Positions 34,888 to 59,200 of a stretch of DNA of 64,000 bases are shown in pieces (position 1 is the stretch's first letter; each line of letters starts with the position of its first letter). Below the pieces are notes generated by a model. The model was given only the letters and a program-made list of their open reading frames with translations, was not told the origin of the DNA and ran no database searches. Source of the DNA: Dolomitihabitans soli (GTDB lineage Bacteria; Actinomycetota; Actinomycetes; Streptosporangiales; Streptosporangiaceae); contig NZ_JAKNTW010000013.1 in assembly GCF_022213955.1 (NCBI RefSeq), positions 1 through 64,000 of the forward strand. Reading direction: 5' to 3'. The position numbers and the translations under genes were made by a program.

Positions 34888-35460
34888 AAGCCGGCCCTCA
34901 GCCCAACCGGGGCAAAGCGCCCCAGACGGGCCGACCCTCAGCCCAACCGAAGCAACGCGCGCCCCGACGCGACGCATACCCCAAACGGGCCGACCCTCAG
35001 CCCAACCGGGGCAACACACGCCCCAGACGGGCCGATCCTCAGCCCAACCGAAGCAACGCGCGCCCCGACGCGACGCATACCCCAAACGGGCCGACCCTCA
35101 GCCCAACCGGGGCAACACACGCCCCAGATGCGCCGATCCTCAGCTCAACCGAAGCAACGCGCGCCCCGACGCGACGCATACCCCAAACGGGCCGACCCTC
35201 AGCCCAACCGGGGCAACACACGCCCCAGATGCGCCGATCCTCAGCTCAACCGAAGCAACGCGCGCCCCGACGCGACGCATACCCCAAACGGGCCGACCCT
35301 CAGCCCAACCGGGGCAACACACGCCCCAGATGCGCCGATCCTCAGCTCAACCGAAGCAACGCGCGCCCCGACGCGACGCGTACCCCAAACGGGCCGACCC
35401 TCAGCTCATCTGGGGCAACGCGCGCCGCGAGCGGGCCTAGCCTCAGTTCATCCGGAGCAA
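34888..35460. repeat. 101-bp tandem repeat array derived from a gene 3' end
   Basis: About five copies of a 101-bp unit made of a 42-bp and a 59-bp half. The block GAAGCAACGCGCGCC recurs at 34949, 35050, 35151, 35252 and 35353, and GGGGCAACACACGCC at 35009, 35110, 35211 and 35312. Each half contains a variant of TTGCTCCGGATGAACTGAGG (minus strand), which is the last codons and stop of the small gene at 35443-35637. The open frames on both strands within the array are consequences of its composition. There are no unique spacers. Confidence 0.9.
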
Positions 35461-35637
35461 CGCGCGTCGTAGACGGGCCGACGCCCGTTCCGCGCCACGC
35501 CGGGCGCGCCGTACGCGCAGGATCTGGGTGACCAGGCGTTGCTCCTCGGCCTCGCGGTGGAGGGTTTGTATTCGGTCCTGCACCACGTTTTCAAACATGG
35601 AGGGGATCTCGTTGCTCCTACCGACGAAGGTGCTCAT
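35443..35637 (-). CDS. small basic protein downstream of whiB7, 64 aa
   Basis: ATG at 35637 has GAAAGGACC nine bases upstream. The protein has an N-terminal segment STFVGRSNEIPSMF, a helical middle (VQDRIQTLHREAEEQRLV) and an Arg-rich C-terminus (RVRRARRGAERASARLRRAL), suggesting nucleic-acid or ribosome binding. It follows whiB7 by 38 bases on the same strand and is probably cotranscribed. I recognise no family. Its 3' end is the seed of the 101-bp repeat array. Confidence 0.65.
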   Translation of the reverse strand: MSTFVGRSNEIPSMFENVVQDRIQTLHREAEEQRLVTQILRVRRARRGAERASARLRRALLRMN

Positions 35638-42969: not shown

Positions 42970-43635
42970 TCAGCTCTCCGATCCGAGCCTGCGCCGCAGC
43001 CACATGCCGCCACCGGCCAGCACCCCGATCCCGCCGAGCCCGGCCAGCCCGGCCATCACCATCCCAGCGGGCACACCCTCGTCCTCGGACCCCGCCAGCC
43101 CACCGGCCCCAGCATCGACGCCCCCTCGAGGCGCCCCACCATCGTCGTCCAGGGACACGCCGCCCTTGCCCGTGTCGACCCCACCCCGCGGAGCCCCACC
43201 GTCATCGTCATCGTCGTCATCCCGGGACACGCCGCCCTTACCCGTGTCCACCCCACCCCGCGGAGCCCCACCATCATCGTCATCGTCGTCATCCCGAGAG
43301 ACGCCGCCCTTACCCGTGTCCACCCCACCCCGCGGAGCCCCACCATCGTCGTCATCGTCGTCATCCCGGGACACGCCGCCCTTACCCGTGTCCACCCCAC
43401 CCCGCGGAGCCCCACCATCGTCGTCATCGTCGTCATCCCGGGACACGCCGCCCTTACCCGTGTCCACCCCACCCCGCGGAGCCCCACCATCATCGTCATC
43501 GTCGTCATCCACGGTGGTGACGGCCGTGAGAGGTGCGGCGGCGGCGATGCCTGGGGAGGAGAGCACGACGCCCGCCGTGCTCATGCCGAGGGTGATGGAG
43601 ATGGCGAGAAGTGCCCGCCGCATTGCCAGAGTCAT
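42970..43635 (-). CDS. secreted acidic repeat protein with C-terminal membrane anchor
   Basis: 221 residues. A Sec signal (about 1-36, MRRALLAISITLGMSTAG) is followed by five 24-residue repeats of seven Asp, then GGAPRGG and VDTGKGG, plus a partial sixth. A C-terminal hydrophobic helix (about 188-210) and a basic tail WLRRRLGSES end it. No LPxTG or LAxTG motif is visible, so sortase anchoring is not proven. Asp7 clusters suggest Ca2+ binding or charge display. ATG at 43635 has GGAGGG four bases upstream. The DNA repeat is 72 bp and nearly identical between copies, indicating recent expansion. Confidence 0.85.
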   Translation of the reverse strand: MTLAMRRALLAISITLGMSTAGVVLSSPGIAAAAPLTAVTTVDDDDDDDGGAPRGGVDTGKGGVSRDDDDDDDGGAPRGGVDTGKGGVSRDDDDDDDGGAPRGGVDTGKGGVSRDDDDDDDGGAPRGGVDTGKGGVSRDDDDDDDGGAPRGGVDTGKGGVSLDDDGGAPRGGVDAGAGGLAGSEDEGVPAGMVMAGLAGLGGIGVLAGGGMWLRRRLGSES

Positions 43636-43695
43636 GAGACCCTCCATGTCGCATTCCGCGGCCTTTCCGCGGATAACTCCAGCTTTGGACTCAGT

Positions 43696-43723
43696 CGTGA
43701 GGCATCCGTGAGCCCGACATGAG
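43696..43723. promoter_or_regulatory. three 11-bp-spaced TGAG repeats upstream of surface protein
   Basis: CGTGAG (43696), CGTGAG (43707) and CATGAG (43718) are in phase at 11-bp spacing, 60-90 bases upstream of the surface protein start. This is the usual form of an OmpR/PhoB-family response-regulator site. A similar set precedes the two-component operon at 46853-46880. A CCGCGG-N5-CCGCGG hairpin lies between this site and the gene (43657-43673). Confidence 0.55.
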
Positions 43724-43924
43724 AGCCTCTTCATCCACGTACCACCCCCGAACGCGCCAAAGTCGAACGGACTGACCACAGCACGCAAAGGGAACAGGGA
43801 AGCAGCCCGGCACGAGCAGCGAACATCGCCCGCCAAGCACCCGAAGCCCGCCTCCGAAGGGCACCCAACCTCAAGATCAGGACCACGCCCAGAACCACGG
43901 CCAAGGGCCAGGCCCCAAGGCCTA

Positions 43925-44262
43925 GGGCATGTGGTTGACGGCACCGAAACCGGGCACACCCGAGACACCCGTCCGGAGATGAGACGCGGAAGCGGTCACC
44001 GCGGAGCATGCCGACCCTGGCAGAGAGAAGAAGCGGAAGTTGTCCGGACGCGGGTCGCCGCGGAGCATGCCGACCCTGACAGGGAAAGAGAAGCCAGCCC
44101 TGGCCTTGGGGAGGAGACCCGACTTCAGCGCGCCCACGGCATCGGGGCGGTATCCCCGCTCGCTGGCCGCGCGGTGCCCGCGATCGGGCCGGGCAGGGGG
44201 AGGAGAACAAGAAGCGCACCAGCAGCCCTACCCGGTCGGGCTGCTCGGGCTGCTCGTCGGTC
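43925..44262 (-). pseudogene. decayed fragment of the AarF-like kinase gene
   Basis: Blocks on the minus strand match the kinase gene at 33460-34788: [11 protein letters not shown] near 44190-44235, RVGMLRGDPRPDNFR near 44040-44085 (40 of 44 bases identical to the intact gene there) and FGAVNHMP at 43925-43949. Between them are frame changes, unrelated sequence and an internal repeat of the GCATGCTCCGCGG block. Everything before and after this central part of the kinase is absent. No functional product is expected. From 43736 to 43924 I see no gene. Confidence 0.8.
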
Positions 44263-46982: not shown

Positions 46983-48188
46983 GTGCGGCTGTATGTCACC
47001 GCGCTCAAACCGACCGACTCGGTCACCCACGGTTTCCTGCCTGCCGCCCGCGCACTGGGCTGCGAGGTGACCATTCTCACCGACCGGCCGGATCGGCACG
47101 CCGAGGTCCTCGATGGGGCCCACAACAGGACCCACGACGGGGCGCTCGATGGGACCGAGATCGTCCCCTGCGACGTGCGCGACCCGCGAGCCGTGATCGA
47201 CACGATCGCCCACCATCACCCGCCCGGCGCGATCTTCTCCAACTCCGACCACCTCCAGGCCGAGACCGCGTTGGCCGCCGCCTACTTCGGCCTGCCGGGC
47301 AAGGACTGGCGGGCCTGCGTGTCCACCAAGAACAAGGCGCTCACCAGGCGCCGGCTGGCCGAGGCCGGCGTGGAGCGGGTTACCTCGGCACGGCTGGCGC
47401 CGGGCGACCCCGTGCCCGCCGTACCGTTGCCCGCCGTGGTCAAGCCGCGCGAAGGGGTGGCTAGCGAGGACGTGGTGCTGGTGCGGACGGCGGACGAGCT
47501 GACCAGGGCCGTCGCGGACATCCGGGCCAGGCGTCCGGGCGAGGCCCTGGTCGTCGAGGAGTACCTCCAGGGCCCGCTGCACACGCTGGAGACGCTCGGC
47601 GACGGCCGTACGACCCGGGTTCTCGGCGGGTTCGCCACCACCCTCGGCCCGCTGCCCCACTTCGTGGAGGAACGGCTCGACTGGGCGCCGGAGAACGCGG
47701 CGCACCGGCACGTGCTGAAGGCCCTGGCCGCGCTGGGGGCGGGGTTCGGGGCCTGCCACACCGAGTACGCGATCACCGAGCGCGGGCCGCGGATCATCGA
47801 GGTCAACTACCGGGTGATCGGCGACCACTGCGACTTCCTGCTGGCGGATCTGCTGGGCGTGCCGCTCTTCGAATGGATTCTCGCGGTCCACCTCGGCGAG
47901 CCCCTCCCCGGCCCACCGGCGGCCTTCGCCGGACACGGGACCGCGGTCAGCCTCGTCGCCCAGACCTCGGGCACGATCAGCTCGGCCCCGCCCGCCATCA
48001 CCCCGCGCGACAGCGACGCGGTACGGCTGTGGCACCGCCCGCTCCGCGCCGTCGGCGACCGGGTGGACGTCGGCAACACCAACCGCGACTACCTGGGCCT
48101 CGTCCGCGCGATCGGACACGACAGGGAGAGCGTGGACACCGCCATCGCCGCCTTCGCCGCCGCCCACCCCTGGACGGTGACCCCATGA
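46983..48188 (+). CDS. ATP-grasp ligase of siderophore operon (PvsA-like)
   Basis: 401 residues with the ATP-grasp fold: AVVKPREGVASEDVVLVRT and ALVVEEYLQGPLHTLETL for nucleotide binding, and the metal-binding end RIIEVNYRVIGDHCDFLLADLLGV. The GTG at 46983 follows a GGAGG ribosome site and an iron box. In vibrioferrin synthesis PvsA is the ATP-grasp enzyme that makes an alanine-2-oxoglutarate unit; this gene has the same position before two IucA/IucC genes and a PLP decarboxylase. The stop overlaps the start of a 73-codon repeat ORF (ATGA). Confidence 0.8.
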   Translation: MRLYVTALKPTDSVTHGFLPAARALGCEVTILTDRPDRHAEVLDGAHNRTHDGALDGTEIVPCDVRDPRAVIDTIAHHHPPGAIFSNSDHLQAETALAAAYFGLPGKDWRACVSTKNKALTRRRLAEAGVERVTSARLAPGDPVPAVPLPAVVKPREGVASEDVVLVRTADELTRAVADIRARRPGEALVVEEYLQGPLHTLETLGDGRTTRVLGGFATTLGPLPHFVEERLDWAPENAAHRHVLKALAALGAGFGACHTEYAITERGPRIIEVNYRVIGDHCDFLLADLLGVPLFEWILAVHLGEPLPGPPAAFAGHGTAVSLVAQTSGTISSAPPAITPRDSDAVRLWHRPLRAVGDRVDVGNTNRDYLGLVRAIGHDRESVDTAIAAFAAAHPWTVTP

Positions 48189-48406
48189 CCGGCCAGCACC
48201 GCCATCGCCGCCGCTCACCCCTGGATGGTGAGCCCGTGACCGGCCAGCACCCGCCCATCGCCGGACCACGTCCCCGCGACCGGCCACCACAGGGACACCA
48301 TCGCCCATCCCTGGACGGTGACCTCACGACCCGACACCACCGCCCATCCATGGACAGCGCCCCCATGACCGCCACCACCGCCCACCCCTGGACGGTGACC
48401 CCGTGA
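48185..48406 (+). repeat. repeat-derived 73-codon ORF bridging two siderophore genes
   Basis: The ATP-grasp gene ends in codons for AHPWTVTP then TGA. That junction, roughly CACCCCTGGACGGTGACC, recurs in degenerate form near 48217, 48308, 48345 and 48383, filling the 214 bases before the first IucA/IucC gene. A continuous frame from the ATG at 48185 runs through the repeats, ends with the same eight residues AHPWTVTP, and its stop overlaps the next start (GTGA). So the array is open and linked by stop-start overlaps at both ends. Whether the Pro/Arg/His-rich peptide has any function is unknown. Confidence 0.75.
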
Positions 48407-49956
48407 TCCCCGATACGCGTGAGACCGAGCGTTACCTCGCGGCGAGGGTCCTGAACGCGTTGCTGCGCGAGGACTTCGGCGGGCTCGCCTCGCGGGTGAC
48501 CCGGACGCCCAGGGGCGGGGTCGCGATCGAGCTCGCGGGCGGTCACGCCGTACGGCTGGCGCCCGGTTCGCTGTTCCAGGATTTCGTGGTGGCCGCCGGG
48601 GAGGCGATCGGCCTGGACGATGTGCTCGCCACGGCGCGGGAGGTGGCCGATCCGGCGGACGCGGCCGGGGTCGAGGCGTTCGCGGTGGAGTGCGGGGAGG
48701 CGTTGCGCGCGCTGGAGTTGCACGACGCGCACCGGGCGGAGGTGCTGGCCAGGATCGAGCCCGGCGACCACGAGACCCTCGCCGCGTTCGTCGATCATCC
48801 GGTCTACCCGACGGCGCGGGCGCGGCACGGGCTGCCCGCGGAGGCGCTGCTCGCCTACGCTCCGGAGTTCGCGCCGTCGTTCGAGCTGCGCTGGGCGGCG
48901 GTCCCCCGGGAGCGGGCGCGGGGCGGGGAGGTGCCGTGGCGGCCGGAGTTCGCGTCGGTGGGGCTGCCCGACCTCGGGGAGACGCACGTGCTGTTCCCGG
49001 TGCATCCGCTGACCGTGGCGACGGTCGGGGACCTGCCCGGAGTGATCGTCGCGAGCCGGCCGTACCTCCGGGTCAGGCCGACCCTGTCCATGCGCACGGT
49101 GATGGTGGGCCCGCGAACCCACCTCAAGCTGCCCCTCCCCACCAGCACCCTCGGCCTGCGCAACCGCCGCTCGATCAAACCGGGGGTGCTGGCCGACGGC
49201 GCGCGGGCCGAACTGCTGCTCAGGGAGGTGCTCGCCCGCGAGCCCGACCTCGGGAACGTGCAGATCGCCGACGAGCAGACGTACGGGCATGCCGGGCACG
49301 AGTACCTCGGATGGATGATTCGGGAGTATCCGGAAGGCGACCTCGTCCCGGTGGCCGCCCTGGCCGCGCCGGCCCTCCGGGGCGGCGCCGTGATCGAGGA
49401 GGTCTCCGGCGGTGACGTGGCCGGGCTCCTGCACGACTACCTGACGGTGCTGCTGCGCTGGAACGTGTGCCTGTTCGTGAAGTACGGCATAGCGGTCGAA
49501 TCCCATCAGCAGAACCTCTCCCTGGTCCTCGGCGACTCCCCCGGCCTGCTGCTCAAGGACAACGACGGGCTGCTCGTCTCGCCCGGTCCACTGGCCGCCG
49601 CCGGGCTCGCCGTACCCGCCTTCGAGGACGGTCGGATGCTCACCCACGACCCGCACGCCCTCGCCGACGTGTTCGTCACGATCACCCTGCACCTCGCCGC
49701 GGCGGCCGTGGCCTTCCACACGCTGCCCGCCGAACAGGCCCGCAGGCTGGTCAGGGACGCACTCGGCGCGGCCATCGGGGAGTACGGCGAGCACCCGATG
49801 GCCCGCCTGCTCCGCGCCCGGACCCTGGACGCCGACCGCCTGGTCGGCAAATCGATGATCACCGCCGGCACCCTGGTGGACAAATCGCGCACCGGGGCGC
49901 TGGATGTGAACAAGTTCTACGGCACCAGCGGACCCAACTACCTGCGACGCCCCTGA
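48403..49956 (+). CDS. IucA/IucC NIS siderophore synthetase 1 (PvsB-like position)
   Basis: 517 residues. NIS-synthetase motifs are DHPVYPTARARHG (substrate/ATP loop), FPVHPLTVATV, RPTLSMRTVMV, HLKLPLPTSTLGLRNRRS and the signature GIAVESHQQNLSLVL. C-terminal FerR-like residues include KSMITAGTLVDKSR. It couples a carboxylate (citrate or 2-oxoglutarate type) to an amine or alcohol using ATP. The GTG at 48403 overlaps the stop of the repeat ORF. By gene order it corresponds to PvsB, but order alone does not fix the subtype. Confidence 0.9.
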   Translation: MIPDTRETERYLAARVLNALLREDFGGLASRVTRTPRGGVAIELAGGHAVRLAPGSLFQDFVVAAGEAIGLDDVLATAREVADPADAAGVEAFAVECGEALRALELHDAHRAEVLARIEPGDHETLAAFVDHPVYPTARARHGLPAEALLAYAPEFAPSFELRWAAVPRERARGGEVPWRPEFASVGLPDLGETHVLFPVHPLTVATVGDLPGVIVASRPYLRVRPTLSMRTVMVGPRTHLKLPLPTSTLGLRNRRSIKPGVLADGARAELLLREVLAREPDLGNVQIADEQTYGHAGHEYLGWMIREYPEGDLVPVAALAAPALRGGAVIEEVSGGDVAGLLHDYLTVLLRWNVCLFVKYGIAVESHQQNLSLVLGDSPGLLLKDNDGLLVSPGPLAAAGLAVPAFEDGRMLTHDPHALADVFVTITLHLAAAAVAFHTLPAEQARRLVRDALGAAIGEYGEHPMARLLRARTLDADRLVGKSMITAGTLVDKSRTGALDVNKFYGTSGPNYLRRP

Positions 49957-50118
49957 CCCGCACCCCCACGAACCGCCACACCACGGACCCGCACCCACGA
50001 ACCCGCCGCGTCATCGCAGCACACCCCAGCACGGTTCACACCATCGAAACCGCCCCACCGCACACCATCCGGCTCAGAGCCTCCCGGACGCACCACCGCA
50101 ACGCCACACCACCGCATC

Positions 50119-50220
50119 GCCGCACCACACGCACTGCCGCACCACCGCACCGCCGCACCACCGCTCCGCCGCACCACCGCTCTGCCGCACCACACGCACT
50201 GCCGCACCACACGCACTGCC
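50119..50220. repeat. 16/17-bp minisatellite between the two NIS synthetase genes
   Basis: About six copies of GCCGCACCACCGCACC (16 bp) or GCCGCACCACACGCACT (17 bp) in tandem fill part of the 309-base space between the synthetase genes. The sequence before it (49957-50118) is also low-complexity and holds no gene. There is no iron box or obvious promoter, so the second synthetase is probably transcribed through it. Confidence 0.8.
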
Positions 50221-50265
50221 GACCCGCCGCACGACAAGATCGACTCGTAAGGGGTATCTCCGCCT

Positions 50266-51816
50266 GTGGACAGCCTTGTGCTCGACATCCCCGCCGTCGC
50301 CGTCGCCGAGGACGCCTCGCTGGCGGCCCTGCTGCGTTGCTGTGTGAGGGAGGTGGCGGGGCCGCGCGGCCAGGTGTGGGAGGCCAGGCCGTACCTCCTG
50401 CTCAGGCTGGCGGAGACGTTGATCCGGGTGCGCGCGGGCGGCGGGATCGCGCTGCGGCTGGAGGACGCGGAACGGCTGGACCACGGGGTCTGGCGCCCGC
50501 TCACCCTCGATCTGCTCGTCGAACTGGTGGAGAGCGAACTCGGCGGGCAGAACCAGGAGTTCGCCGCCCAGGTCTCCGCGAGCCGCGAGGCGATGGCGAT
50601 CATGCTCAAGGCCCGCGCCGACGCCGACCCGCCCGAGAGTCCCTGGCTCGCCTCCGAGCAGTCGCTCGTCTTCGGCCACCCGTTCCATCCCTCGCCCAAG
50701 GCCCGGGGCGGCGCCGGCTGGCTCGCCTACGCCCCCGAGGCCCACGCCAGCTTCCCGCTCCGGCTGCTCGCCGTACGCGAGGATCTGCTCGCCGCGCGGG
50801 GGGACACGGCCGCGCTCGACCGGCTGGGGACGGCCCCGCCCGGGTACGCCCTGCTGCCCGCGCATCCCTGGCAACTCGACCTTCTCGGTCCCGCCCTCGA
50901 CGGTCCGCTCGGCGACGGCCGCCTCGTCGACCTCGGTCCGGGGACGCGCCCGGTGGTGCCGACCTCCTCGGTGCGCACCGTCTACGAGCCGGAGACCGGG
51001 ACCTGCCTGAAGTTCAGCCTGGACATCCGGATCACCAACTGCGTGCGGAAGAACTCCTGGTACGAGTTGGAGGGCGCGGTGGCGCTCACCGGGCTGCTGG
51101 CCCCGGTCTTCGAGGACCTGTCGGCCCGCTTCCCCGGCACCCGATGGCTGCCCGAACCCGGCTACCGGTCCGCCGCCCTCGGCTCCCGCCTGCTGGAGGG
51201 CCTGGGCGTGATCGTCCGTACCGCCCCGGGCCCCGCCGCCCTGCTGGCCGCCTCCCTCACCACCCACCGGGTCCGCGACGCCGCCCGCTGGTGGCGCGCC
51301 TACGTCGAGCACGTGGCCCGCCCCGTGCTCGACGCCTATTTCACGCACGGCGTCGTCCTGGAACCCCACCTCCAGAACGTGCTCATCGGCCTCGACCCCG
51401 ACGGCATCCCCGCCGAGGCCGTCTTCCGCGACCTGGAAGGCACCAAACTCCTCCCCGCGCGGCATCCCGCCCTCCCCGCCGAGCTGGCCGGCACCCTGAC
51501 CTACACCCCCGACCAGGGCTGGAACCGCGTCGTCTACTGCCTGTTCGTCAACCATCTGTCCGAGATCGCCGCCACCCTCGCGGACGACGAGGACACCCTG
51601 CGCGAACTGTGGACCATCGCGGGTGAGGTGCTCGCCGCGTACGCGGAGACGGTCGGCCGGCCGGCGAAGCTGATGGACCTGCTGGCCGGGGCCCCGCTCC
51701 CGGCGAAGGCGAACCTCACCGTGCGCTGGGCCCGCTCGGCCGACCGCACGGCCGGCTACGTCCCCGTCGCCAACCCGTTCGCCGCCAACCCGCCCGCCTG
51801 CGAGGTGACCCGTTGA
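50266..51816 (+). CDS. IucA/IucC NIS siderophore synthetase 2 (PvsD-like position)
   Basis: 516 residues. Motifs are FGHPFHPSPKARGG (the classical GHPxHPxxKxR ATP/substrate loop), LLPAHPWQLDLL, VVPTSSVRTVYEP, CLKFSLDIRITNCVRKNS, GVVLEPHLQNVLIGL and RDLEGTKLLP. This is a typical type A/B NIS synthetase that condenses citrate with an amino acid or amino alcohol. In vibrioferrin synthesis PvsD joins citrate and serine before decarboxylation; the next gene here is the decarboxylase. The GTG at 50266 lacks a strong ribosome site. Confidence 0.92.
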   Translation: MDSLVLDIPAVAVAEDASLAALLRCCVREVAGPRGQVWEARPYLLLRLAETLIRVRAGGGIALRLEDAERLDHGVWRPLTLDLLVELVESELGGQNQEFAAQVSASREAMAIMLKARADADPPESPWLASEQSLVFGHPFHPSPKARGGAGWLAYAPEAHASFPLRLLAVREDLLAARGDTAALDRLGTAPPGYALLPAHPWQLDLLGPALDGPLGDGRLVDLGPGTRPVVPTSSVRTVYEPETGTCLKFSLDIRITNCVRKNSWYELEGAVALTGLLAPVFEDLSARFPGTRWLPEPGYRSAALGSRLLEGLGVIVRTAPGPAALLAASLTTHRVRDAARWWRAYVEHVARPVLDAYFTHGVVLEPHLQNVLIGLDPDGIPAEAVFRDLEGTKLLPARHPALPAELAGTLTYTPDQGWNRVVYCLFVNHLSEIAATLADDEDTLRELWTIAGEVLAAYAETVGRPAKLMDLLAGAPLPAKANLTVRWARSADRTAGYVPVANPFAANPPACEVTR

Positions 51817-52901
51817 TCGTCCCCCCGCCCGCCGTACAGGCGCTCGCCGAGCATGCCCCCGCCTACGTCTACGACCTCGCCGACCTGCACACCCACGCCC
51901 GGTCCGTACGGCAGGCGGTACACGGCGCCGAGCTCTACTACGCGGTCAAGGCCAATCCCGACCCCGAGATCCTCCGGGTCCTCGCTCCCCATCTGGACGG
52001 CTTCGAGGTCTCCTCGGCGGGCGAACTGGCCCACGTCCGCGCCACGGTCCCCGGCGCCAGGATCGCCCTGGGCGGCCCCGGCAAGACGGCCGGGGAACTC
52101 ACCGCCCCCGTCGACCGCCTGCACGTCGAGAGCCCCGGCGAACTGCGCCGCCTGCTGGCCACCGGGATCACGGCCGACATCCTGCTCAGGCTCAACCTGG
52201 ACATCCCCATCGGCGGCGCGGCACTCACCATGGGCGGCGGCGCCACCCCCTTCGGCATGGACCCCGCAGGCGCGCAGGAGTGCGCGGACCTCCTGAAACC
52301 CCAGCACCGCGTACGGCTGCGCGGCATCCACGCCCACCTGGCCAGCGGCCTGGACGCCGCCGACCTCGCCGGCCTGGCGCGCGCCGTACTGGATCACGCC
52401 GGAGACCACGACGAGGTCAATCTCGGCGGCGGCATGAACGTGTCCTACACCGACCCGGGCGCGAGGTTCGACTGGACCTCCTACGGCACCGCCCTGAGGG
52501 CCCTGGGACGGCCGGGCCGGACGCTGCGGATCGAGCCGGGCCGTGCCCTGACGGCGTACTGCGGCTGGTATCTCACCCGGGTGATCGACCTGAAGCGGGT
52601 CCACGGCGCGCTGTTCGCCGTGGTCACCGGCGGCACCCACCACCTGCGCACCCCGGTCGCCAAGTCACACGACCAGCCCTTCGCCGTACTCCCCACCGGC
52701 CACGGCCCCGCCATCACCGACGAACCGGTCACGATCGTCGGCCAGCTCTGCACCCCCAAGGACGTCTTCGCCCGCCAAATCCCCATAAATCACCTTCAAA
52801 CAGGGGACACCATCGCCTTCGCCCTGGCCGGCGCCTACGCCTGGAACATCTCCCACCACGACTTCCTCATGCACCCCAAACCAACCTTCCACTACGTCTG
52901 A
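51813..52901 (+). CDS. type III PLP decarboxylase (PvsE/SbnH-like)
   Basis: 362 residues of the alanine-racemase-fold decarboxylases. The PLP lysine lies in YYAVKANPDPEIL, with GIHAHLASGLD, NLGGGMNVSY, RIEPGRALTAYCG for phosphate, the catalytic Cys/Asp in GQLCTPKDVFA, and GAYAWNISHHDFLMHP near the end, a hallmark of siderophore decarboxylases. It would decarboxylate a citryl-amino-acid intermediate to the amine, as PvsE and SbnH do. Its TTG start overlaps the stop of synthetase 2 (TTGA), fixing it in the same pathway. It is the last gene of the operon; no exporter or receptor follows. Confidence 0.88.
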   Translation: MIVPPPAVQALAEHAPAYVYDLADLHTHARSVRQAVHGAELYYAVKANPDPEILRVLAPHLDGFEVSSAGELAHVRATVPGARIALGGPGKTAGELTAPVDRLHVESPGELRRLLATGITADILLRLNLDIPIGGAALTMGGGATPFGMDPAGAQECADLLKPQHRVRLRGIHAHLASGLDAADLAGLARAVLDHAGDHDEVNLGGGMNVSYTDPGARFDWTSYGTALRALGRPGRTLRIEPGRALTAYCGWYLTRVIDLKRVHGALFAVVTGGTHHLRTPVAKSHDQPFAVLPTGHGPAITDEPVTIVGQLCTPKDVFARQIPINHLQTGDTIAFALAGAYAWNISHHDFLMHPKPTFHYV

Positions 52902-56229: not shown

Positions 56230-59200
56230 ACCTGGCCCCCGTCGTCGTTGACCGGGCAGCTCGACCTGGCCGCGCAGGTACGGCAGCCGTCGTTGACCTG
56301 TGCCTGGAAGAACGGGCCCGACATGCCGGTGGCCACGGTGTCGACCAGCTTCTCCGCCCACTTCGGATCGTCGTCGTCGCCGAGTGCCCGCTGGCCCTGT
56401 TCCTTGGCGTCCTTGCCGGCCGCCTTGCCGACCTGCACCAGCGCCGCGCCGCCCGGCTCGGTGAGCCCGTGCCGCCGGAACGCGCCGAGCAGCGTGGCGA
56501 GCTGGTAGACGCCGAGCTGCGGGTGGCGGTCGAGATCGGCGTCCGAGGGCTTGGAACTGCCGGTCTTCAGGTCGATGATCACCGCTCGGCCCTCGCCGTC
56601 ACGCTCGACCCGGTCGACCCTGCCCTTGATCTGCACGCCCTCGGAGACCATCGCGGTGAACGCCTCCTCGGGGGCGACCAGCTCCCTGGGGTTCTCCTGA
56701 TGCCAGCGGACGAACTTGCCGATCATCTGCTCGGCGACCTTGCGCTGCTTGCGGTTGAACCATTTGCCGCCGAAGTCGAGCTCGTCCCAGATCCCGTCGA
56801 GGCGCTTGCCCAGCGTCTCCTCGGTGGGCAGGCCGGTCGCGGCGAGCGCGGCGAGCGCGTGCACGACCGTGCCGAGCCCCTGCGCCGCGCTGGTGCCGCT
56901 CGCGCCCACCGAGGTCTCCAGCAGCCACCGCAGGCCGCACTTGGTGAAGCTCTCCACGGCCGAGGGCGAGATCCGGACGATGTCGTCGGGCCAGCCGAGC
57001 GGGCGGTCGTCGGAGATCGGGGTCAGGCCGTACCAGTCGTCGGGGTGCGCGCCCTGCACGCCCGCCTCCGCCAGCCTGGCCAGATGACTCGCCGCCGCCT
57101 GGCGCAGGCGTTCCGGCCTGGTCGGGTCGCACACCGCCTGCCGCAGGTCGGCCACCAGGGCGGACATGCTCAGCCAGCGCGCCCGGTCGGTCGCGCCCGC
57201 CTCCTCCACGCTGCCGGGCAGCAGCTCCGACAGGAACCGCGAGGGCCGCTCGTCGGTGTCCTCGCCGCCGACCGCCGTGACCACGAGCTTCTTCCGCGCC
57301 CTGGTCGCGGCCACGTAGAACAGACGGCGTTCCTCGGCGAGCAGTTTGGAGGCCAGCGCGGCGGAGGCGGCGTCCGTGCCGCCCGGCGCCGACCCCCTGG
57401 ACAGCTCGACCATGTCCTCCACGCCCAGCATCGAACCGCGCAGCCGCAGGTCGGGCCAGACCCCCTCCTGCACCCCCGCGACCACCACGACGTCCCACTC
57501 CAGGCCCTTGGCGCGGTGCGCGGTCAGGATGCGTACGGCGTCGCCTTCCGGGGCGTGCTCGGCCAGGGTGTCACCGGCGATCTCCTGCGACGCCAGATCG
57601 TCGAGGAACACCTCGGGCCCCGCCTTCGGCAACCGGTCCACGAACCGCGCCGCGTGGTCGAACAGCGCCATCACCGCGTCGAGATCCCGGTCGGCCGCCG
57701 CGCCCCTCGCCCCGCCGCCCAGGCTCACCTCGGTCCAGGTCTGCGCGAGGCCGCTGGCCTGCCACACCGCCCACAGCACGTCCTCCGCCGTACCGCTCTG
57801 CCGTACGGCCTCGCCCGCGGTGACGAGCAGCTTGGCCAGCCGCTCGGCCGGCGCCGCGATGTGCGGCTCCACCCGCACCAGCTCCCGCGCGTCCCGCACC
57901 GCCGCCACCAGCAGTTCCCCCGCCGTCCGCAGACCCCCCTCCCGCTCCGCCACCCGGACGGCCCCGTCCTCTGCGACACCCTCACGCACGGCAGGAGCCA
58001 GCGGGACAGACTCCCCGCCGTCACCCTCACGCACGGCGGAAGCCTGCGGGGCAGAGTCCCCACCGGCACCCACACGTACAGCGGGAGCCAGAAGGACGGA
58101 CTCCCCATCGGCACCCTCACGCACGGCGGAAGCCTGCGGGGCAGAGTCCCCACCGACACCCACCACACCACCCTCACGTACAGCGGGAACCTGCGGGACG
58201 GACTCCCCATCGGCACCCACCTCACCGGCGAGCCGCCGCGCGGCCGAATCCAGCACGCCCCTCTCGGAGACGGCATCGTCCTGCACGGTGCCAACCTGGT
58301 CGACGGGATCCTGCACGTCGTCCTCGTCGGCGGGATCCTGCACACCGTCCTCGTCGGCGGGATCCTGCACACCGTCCTCGTGGGCGGCTTCGGCGGCCTC
58401 GGCGGCCTCGGCGGCGTGTTCGGCGATGCGGAGGGCGCGACGGAGGCGGCGGACGCCGATCATGTCGGTGCCGCCCAGCGGGCCGGTGAGCAGTTCCTCG
58501 ACGACGGCCTCGTCCAGGGTCTCGGGGTGCATCGCCACCCGCAGCAGGGTGATCATCGGCCGGACCCCGGGCTCCGCGGCCACCGGCAGCTCGTCGCTCG
58601 CGACCGTGACCGGCACCCCGGCCGTCACCAGGGCCCTGCGCAGCAACGGCACCTGCCGTGCCGCCGACCGCACCAGCACCGCCATCCGCGACCACGCCAC
58701 CCCGTCGAGCAGGTGTGCCCGGCGCAGCGTGTCGGCCACCACGGCGGCCTCCTGGCTCGCGCCGTCGGTGAGCAGCGCCCGCACCTCGCCCGGCTCGGCG
58801 TCCTGGCTCGGGAGCAGGTCGCGGTGCCCCCGGCCGGCGGCGCCGGACGGCGGGCCGACGGCGCTGGACGGCGGGGCGGCGGCGCTGGACGGCGGGGCGG
58901 CGGCGCTGGACGGCGGGGCGGCGGGGAGGCGGGCGGTCACCCGGCGGGAGGCGGTCAGCAGGCCGGGCGCCATCCGGCGGCAGACGCGCAGGGCGACCAC
59001 GGGGGCGTCGTGGCCGTCGCGGGTGGGGAACCGTTCGGGGAAGCGGAGGATGCCGCCGACTTCGGCCCCGCGGAAGCCGTAGATGGACTGGTCGGGGTCG
59101 CCGACCGCGATCAGGTCGCGCCCGTCGCCGGCGAGCTGCCTGAGCAGGAACTCCTGCGCGGGATCGGTGTCCTGGTACTCGTCCACGTAGACGACGTCGT

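Follow-up and report, generated by a model that had tools for sequence, protein, structure and literature searches.

The ATP-grasp and IucA-like genes of a siderophore-type operon are separated, in the actinomycete genome examined here, by an array of degenerate copies of their own stop/start junction, and a 73-codon frame that overlaps the stop of the first gene and the start of the second runs unbroken through this array. Our preferred reading, held with moderate rather than high confidence and built on sequence comparison, is that a termination–reinitiation site was duplicated locally, that the duplication would have been tolerated since a coupling device comes with each copy, and that the 73-codon frame (hereafter the relay) retains coupling between the two genes. 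The chief rival, which we regard as possible yet doubtful, is neutral expansion, whereby repeats drift at gene ends, IucA has a ribosome-binding site of its own and the relay is an unused and inevitable by-product.

The operon and its genes

The window (the whole 64,000-nt stretch of DNA analysed) comes from an actinomycete genome of 10.8 Mb in 81 contigs and contains a siderophore-type cluster, an operon of an ATP-grasp gene, two genes for IucA/IucC-type synthetases and one for a PLP-dependent decarboxylase. The upstream gene of the pair considered here (46983–48188, + strand) encodes a 401 aa ATP-grasp protein (Pfam ATP-grasp_4 and ATP-grasp_3) with up to 79% identity to its relatives, and by this gene the relatives are Streptosporangiaceae (e.g. 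Spongiactinospora, Planomonospora, Nonomuraea and Thermocatellispora). The downstream gene (48403–49956, + strand) encodes a 517 aa IucA/IucC-type siderophore synthetase (Pfam IucA_IucC and FhuF). It is followed by the second IucA/IucC-type synthetase gene (50266–51816, + strand) and by the decarboxylase gene (51813–52901, + strand), whose TTGA start overlaps the preceding stop (−4).

Several other repeats are found in the window. The two IucA genes are separated by 309 nt (49957–50265). This gap contains a 16-nt repeat array and is estimated at −4 to about 20 nt in most relatives, making it a second expanded junction of the siderophore operon, one without an obvious relay. Further tandem arrays lie at 34890–35466, 43142–43510, 50089–50232, 57977–58226, 58295–58387 and 58830–58933. 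An ORF at 42970–43968 (− strand) comprises near-identical 24-residue repeats (DDDDDDDGGAPRGGVDTGKGGVSR) encoded by a 72-nt array, and adjoins a gene that we take to be possibly sortase-like.

Six copies of a stop/start junction

The array spans 48160–48406 and consists of six copies of about 29 nt from the 3′ end of the ATP-grasp gene, including its ATGA stop/start. The copies begin at 48160, 48211, 48251, 48301, 48340 and 48378, at spacings of 51, 40, 50, 39 and 38 nt, and TRF detects a 51-nt period over 48141–48263 and a 39-nt period over 48294–48402. The initial annotation had recognised the repetition and put it at about four copies beyond the gene end; the repetition is real, the number of additional copies is five. 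Copy 1 (48160–48188, + strand; CCGCCCACCCCTGGACGGTGACCCCATGA), the reference for all comparisons, encodes the C-terminus AHPWTVTP and the stop codon, with the ATGA at 48185–48188 (+ strand) forming a −4 overlap between the ATP-grasp stop and the relay start. Copy 2 (48211–48239, + strand) matches the 29-nt core at 25 positions and keeps a GTGA at 48236, copy 3 (48251–48279, + strand; 20/29) is without either TGA triplet, copy 4 (48301–48329, + strand; 25/29) has lost the start (ACGA) and copy 5 (48340–48368, + strand; 24/29) keeps an ATGA at 48365. Copy 6 (48378–48406, + strand) matches copy 1 at 28 of 29 positions and both abuts and includes the IucA start, the GTGA at 48403–48406 (+ strand) being the relay stop overlapped with the start of the IucA-like gene. 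Across 2000 dinucleotide-shuffled sequences the best match had a mean of 17.0 and a maximum of 24, and the fourth-best was always 17 or lower.

The interior copies thus show 4 to 9 differences from the 29-nt core. The better preservation of copy 6 counts against neutral expansion, though the contrast is a modest one (one-sided P = 0.03). Preserved ends and a decayed interior fit constraint on copy 1 as coding sequence and on copy 6 as an initiation site. When the array sequence was searched against the whole genome it matched its own locus only, which argues that the array arose locally.

The ancestral junction in relatives

The IucA-frame start overlaps the ATP-grasp stop in 62 of the 65 relatives compared, typically as RTGA (one of the 62 has a TTG start), and the coupling arrangement of the two genes is kept in all 65. 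Three Spongiactinospora, the nearest relatives by C-terminal sequence, have a single 29-nt core with 1 or 2 differences. Because the relatives overlap and Spongiactinospora is single-copy, the 214-nt gap and the array are derived, and the comparison supports the proposal of the initial annotation that the two genes once overlapped and were moved apart when the junction was duplicated in tandem. That annotation had also suggested that related strains be compared for a conserved, non-repetitive protein in the gap. None was found, nor was there any counterpart of the relay frame among the 65 relatives.

Broken ATP-grasp/IucA junctions were likewise absent (0/65), the relatives sharing ancestry and not amounting to 65 independent tests; placing 1 or 2 extra nt behind the stop, as a control, left a chain in 3/65 or 23/65. 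Three species have relays at this same junction. In Actinomadura rudentiformis (L086), a 20-nt junction duplication gives GTG AAC GAA TGG ACG ATC GCG TGA, a relay of 7 codons (VNEWTIA, then stop) between −4 overlaps. In A. barringtoniae (L082), units of 17 to 24 nt give a relay chain of 6 codons (MNETIR, then stop) and 21 codons. In a Microtetraspora (L032) a distance of 61 nt is spanned by a relay of 22 codons in which repeats are not clear. These cases look separate from one another and from ours, both Actinomadura relays apparently having come about by their own junction duplications, and the fact that separated copies of the junction are chained in three other species too speaks against neutral expansion. 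In other genera junction repeats have added in-frame residues to the IucA N-terminus (L042, L045 and L046; L081 and L090; L089; e.g. RVKAVRDRVKAVRERV), which, judged from the sequences, is a second outcome of junction duplication, with coupling kept directly.

The 73-codon relay frame

The relay (48185–48406, + strand) runs from ATG to TGA with −4 overlaps at both ends. Its 73 codons, its ATGA and GTGA overlaps and its AHPWTVTP terminus are all as first described. Stop/start overlap of the kind that defines termination–reinitiation sites is thus present at each end of the relay and not directly between the two genes, which are 214 nt apart. The frame passes through successive copies in different registers and its codon score is not coding-like (−0.08 per codon, vs a median of 0.43 for called genes), as neutral expansion would have it.

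Also in keeping with neutral expansion, the frame, given the phase, stays open in 40% of dinucleotide shuffles. Its openness is unremarkable also in that long overlapping ORFs run on other frames and strands. After random insertion or removal of 1 or 2 nt, a stop/start chain to IucA survives in 62–98% of trials, each copy supplying a stop and a start of its own, and a phase-shift null for the ATP-grasp/IucA array alone gives P = 0.86. For this array the relay is nearly automatic and is, on its own, weak evidence of selection; we had considered inferring selection from the chain alone and, after the phase-shift control, rejected the chain as strong evidence.

It is very unlikely that the array is instead an RNA structure or regulatory element such as an attenuator, terminator or riboswitch: the repeats do sit at an operon junction, with small hairpins upstream of some copies, but the fold energy is no better than that of shuffles (z = −0.25) and searches gave no Rfam match and no terminator- or promoter-like site. 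A hairpin sequestering the GGTGA before IucA was also considered and is a lead at most; it folds in some copies and in one Spongiactinospora, inconsistently. A genuine small protein of 73 residues, acting in its own right within the siderophore operon, is a barely credible reading: the frame is open with start and stop in place, but has no Pfam match and lacks both conservation in the relatives and gene-like codon usage, quite apart from its shifting registers. The relay peptide itself is probably without function.

Expanded junctions elsewhere in the genome

Genes were called on 1.66 Mb of the genome and co-directional pairs were sought in which the stop region of the upstream gene recurs downstream. 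Seven expanded junctions were found in which the upstream stop overlaps a start, and in 7/7 an unbroken chain of ORFs leads to the next gene. Besides ATP-grasp/IucA these are ABC ATPase/permease (C30:16808; relays of 101 and 56 codons), E1-alpha/E1-beta (C30:316671, in L138 at C30:316491–316682; two 24-codon relays), MetG/TatD (C3:379942, in L217 at C3:379875–379942; five serial 5-codon ORFs, each VSAES then stop, from a 14-nt unit), ModB/ModC (C30:256682; 40 and 4 codons), DeoR-type/enolase superfamily (C30:220816; 74 codons) and flippase/sulfotransferase (C3:331468; 59 codons). The last is weakly repeated, with a repeat score of 37 vs a control maximum of 39. Gene names outside the siderophore cluster were read from the sequences rather than obtained by family search. 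Match coordinates indicate overlap in relatives at the E1 junction (G003) and at ModB/ModC (G003, G005, G009 and G025), and the state of the MetG/TatD junction varies among relatives. None of the seven arrays, each searched across the 1.66 Mb sample, had a match elsewhere.

No broken chain was seen among the seven, nor did any overlapping pair in the 1.66 Mb sample show an expansion that lengthened its downstream member, a uniformity that neutral expansion does not readily explain. Amongst non-array gaps of 60–500 nt with an overlapping start, chains are present in 21/99; the difference from the arrays (Fisher P = 5e-5) partly reflects the fact that arrays copy junction signals. When phase was randomised array by array, the P value for all seven being chained was about 0.04. 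The genome also offers neutral expansion some support. Intergenic arrays are common, accounting for 2.7–9.2% of intergenic bases in four long contig stretches, and most stop-duplicated junctions in the sampled genome have no overlapping start at all. Most arrays lie between genes that run in the same direction or converge, and few in divergent (promoter) gaps; the corresponding share is 0.5% in genome G012 and 8% in G044. Keeping a relay may simply follow from the copying of a junction, but the wider evidence, that is, the seven chains and the independent cases in other species, is more suggestive of selection than this array alone. The earlier suggestion that stop–start coupling had been kept therefore holds as a description of architecture, in the chain here, at six other junctions and in other species, and not as one of function.

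As a separate observation, RTGA...RTGA gaps of 25–900 nt in the sampled genomes fall into 36 linked, 17 unlinked and 15 downstream-frame cases. The excess of linked over unlinked phase (P = 0.013) is exploratory and the frames are mostly non-coding-like; they might represent hidden relay ORFs or small genes that escaped calling.

How the junction may have expanded

On our preferred reading, the ATP-grasp and IucA-like genes would first have shared an RTGA stop/start, a termination–reinitiation junction. Local tandem duplication would then have produced six copies of a 38–51 nt unit spanning the gene 3′ end and the stop/start, after which the copies would have decayed, with copy 1 still terminating ATP-grasp, copy 6 still initiating IucA and the middle copies read as one 73-codon relay from the first RTGA to the last. 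A ribosome leaving ATP-grasp would restart on the relay, terminate at GTGA and restart on IucA, and coupling would thereby outlast a 214-nt gap otherwise expected to abolish it. In experimental studies coupling requires overlap or a very short distance, and 15 nt from the end of the upstream gene are enough for it (PMC10666635), so a unit reaching from the gene end across RTGA would carry the complete coupling device. The length of an RTGA unit would set the outcome: 2 mod 3 would give a relay, 0 mod 3 would extend the downstream protein and 1 mod 3 would break coupling. Relay and extension are both seen; breakage is not.

Use of the relay by ribosomes, and selection against duplications that break it, are what we infer from these patterns. 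IucA could also be initiated independently at the GTG at 48403. Sequence inspection reveals a GGTGA (48394–48398, + strand) 4 nt before this codon, a possible weak Shine-Dalgarno sequence whose function is presumed, and GGTGA is also present in copies 1, 2 and 4.

More tentatively, and with somewhat less than even confidence, RTGA junction duplication might be a recurrent route to longer operon spacers in Streptosporangiaceae and related actinomycetes, with selection keeping those lengths that give a relay or a direct start and leaving chains of meaningless ORFs, down to 5 codons, that would pass ribosomes between genes. In the gene pairs tested, hardly any reinitiation is left once the gap reaches about 20 nt (PMC10666635). 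With coupling nearly lost beyond this distance in the E. coli and Haloferax experiments, overlapping genes should be trapped in overlap, and duplication of a junction with its stop/start would be a way out, the spacer growing as relay ORFs keep the coupling. Multi-step reinitiation in nature thus becomes testable, MetG/TatD offering five 5-codon steps in a row. A note of caution is that relay ORFs may get annotated as small genes.

Comparison with known systems

In the literature searched, no paper was found on junction duplication of the ATP-grasp/IucA kind, but three known systems bear a resemblance to it. The first is the termination–reinitiation pair with an ATGA or GTGA junction (PMC6728339, PMC10666635), whose −4 overlap is present at both ends of the relay; here, however, two such overlaps follow each other in series across a lengthened spacer and enclose an ORF that appears meaningless. 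The second is the bicistronic design, in which a short leader ORF delivers ribosomes to a gene (PMC12548453). In both, the stop of a short ORF overlaps a gene start, but the present arrangement is natural, lies within an operon and was made by duplication of a gene junction.

The closest parallel is with mycobacterial interspersed repetitive units (MIRUs; Supply et al. 1997, via PMC12548453). These repeats connect to start codons through a −4 overlap, an arrangement considered to make insertion less costly (PMC12548453). In MIRUs, as here, a repeat occupies a stop/start junction and the ORF inside it is linked to its neighbouring gene by such an overlap (here ATGA at 48185 and GTGA at 48403), and MIRU insertion leaves expression largely intact. 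MIRUs, however, are dispersed and apparently mobile, whereas our array matches its own locus only, bears no sign of mobility or of insertion into a pre-existing site and consists of units copied from the adjacent gene end, a composition indicative of tandem duplication. The array shares the working principle of MIRUs without being one of them, and can be regarded as their locus-born counterpart.
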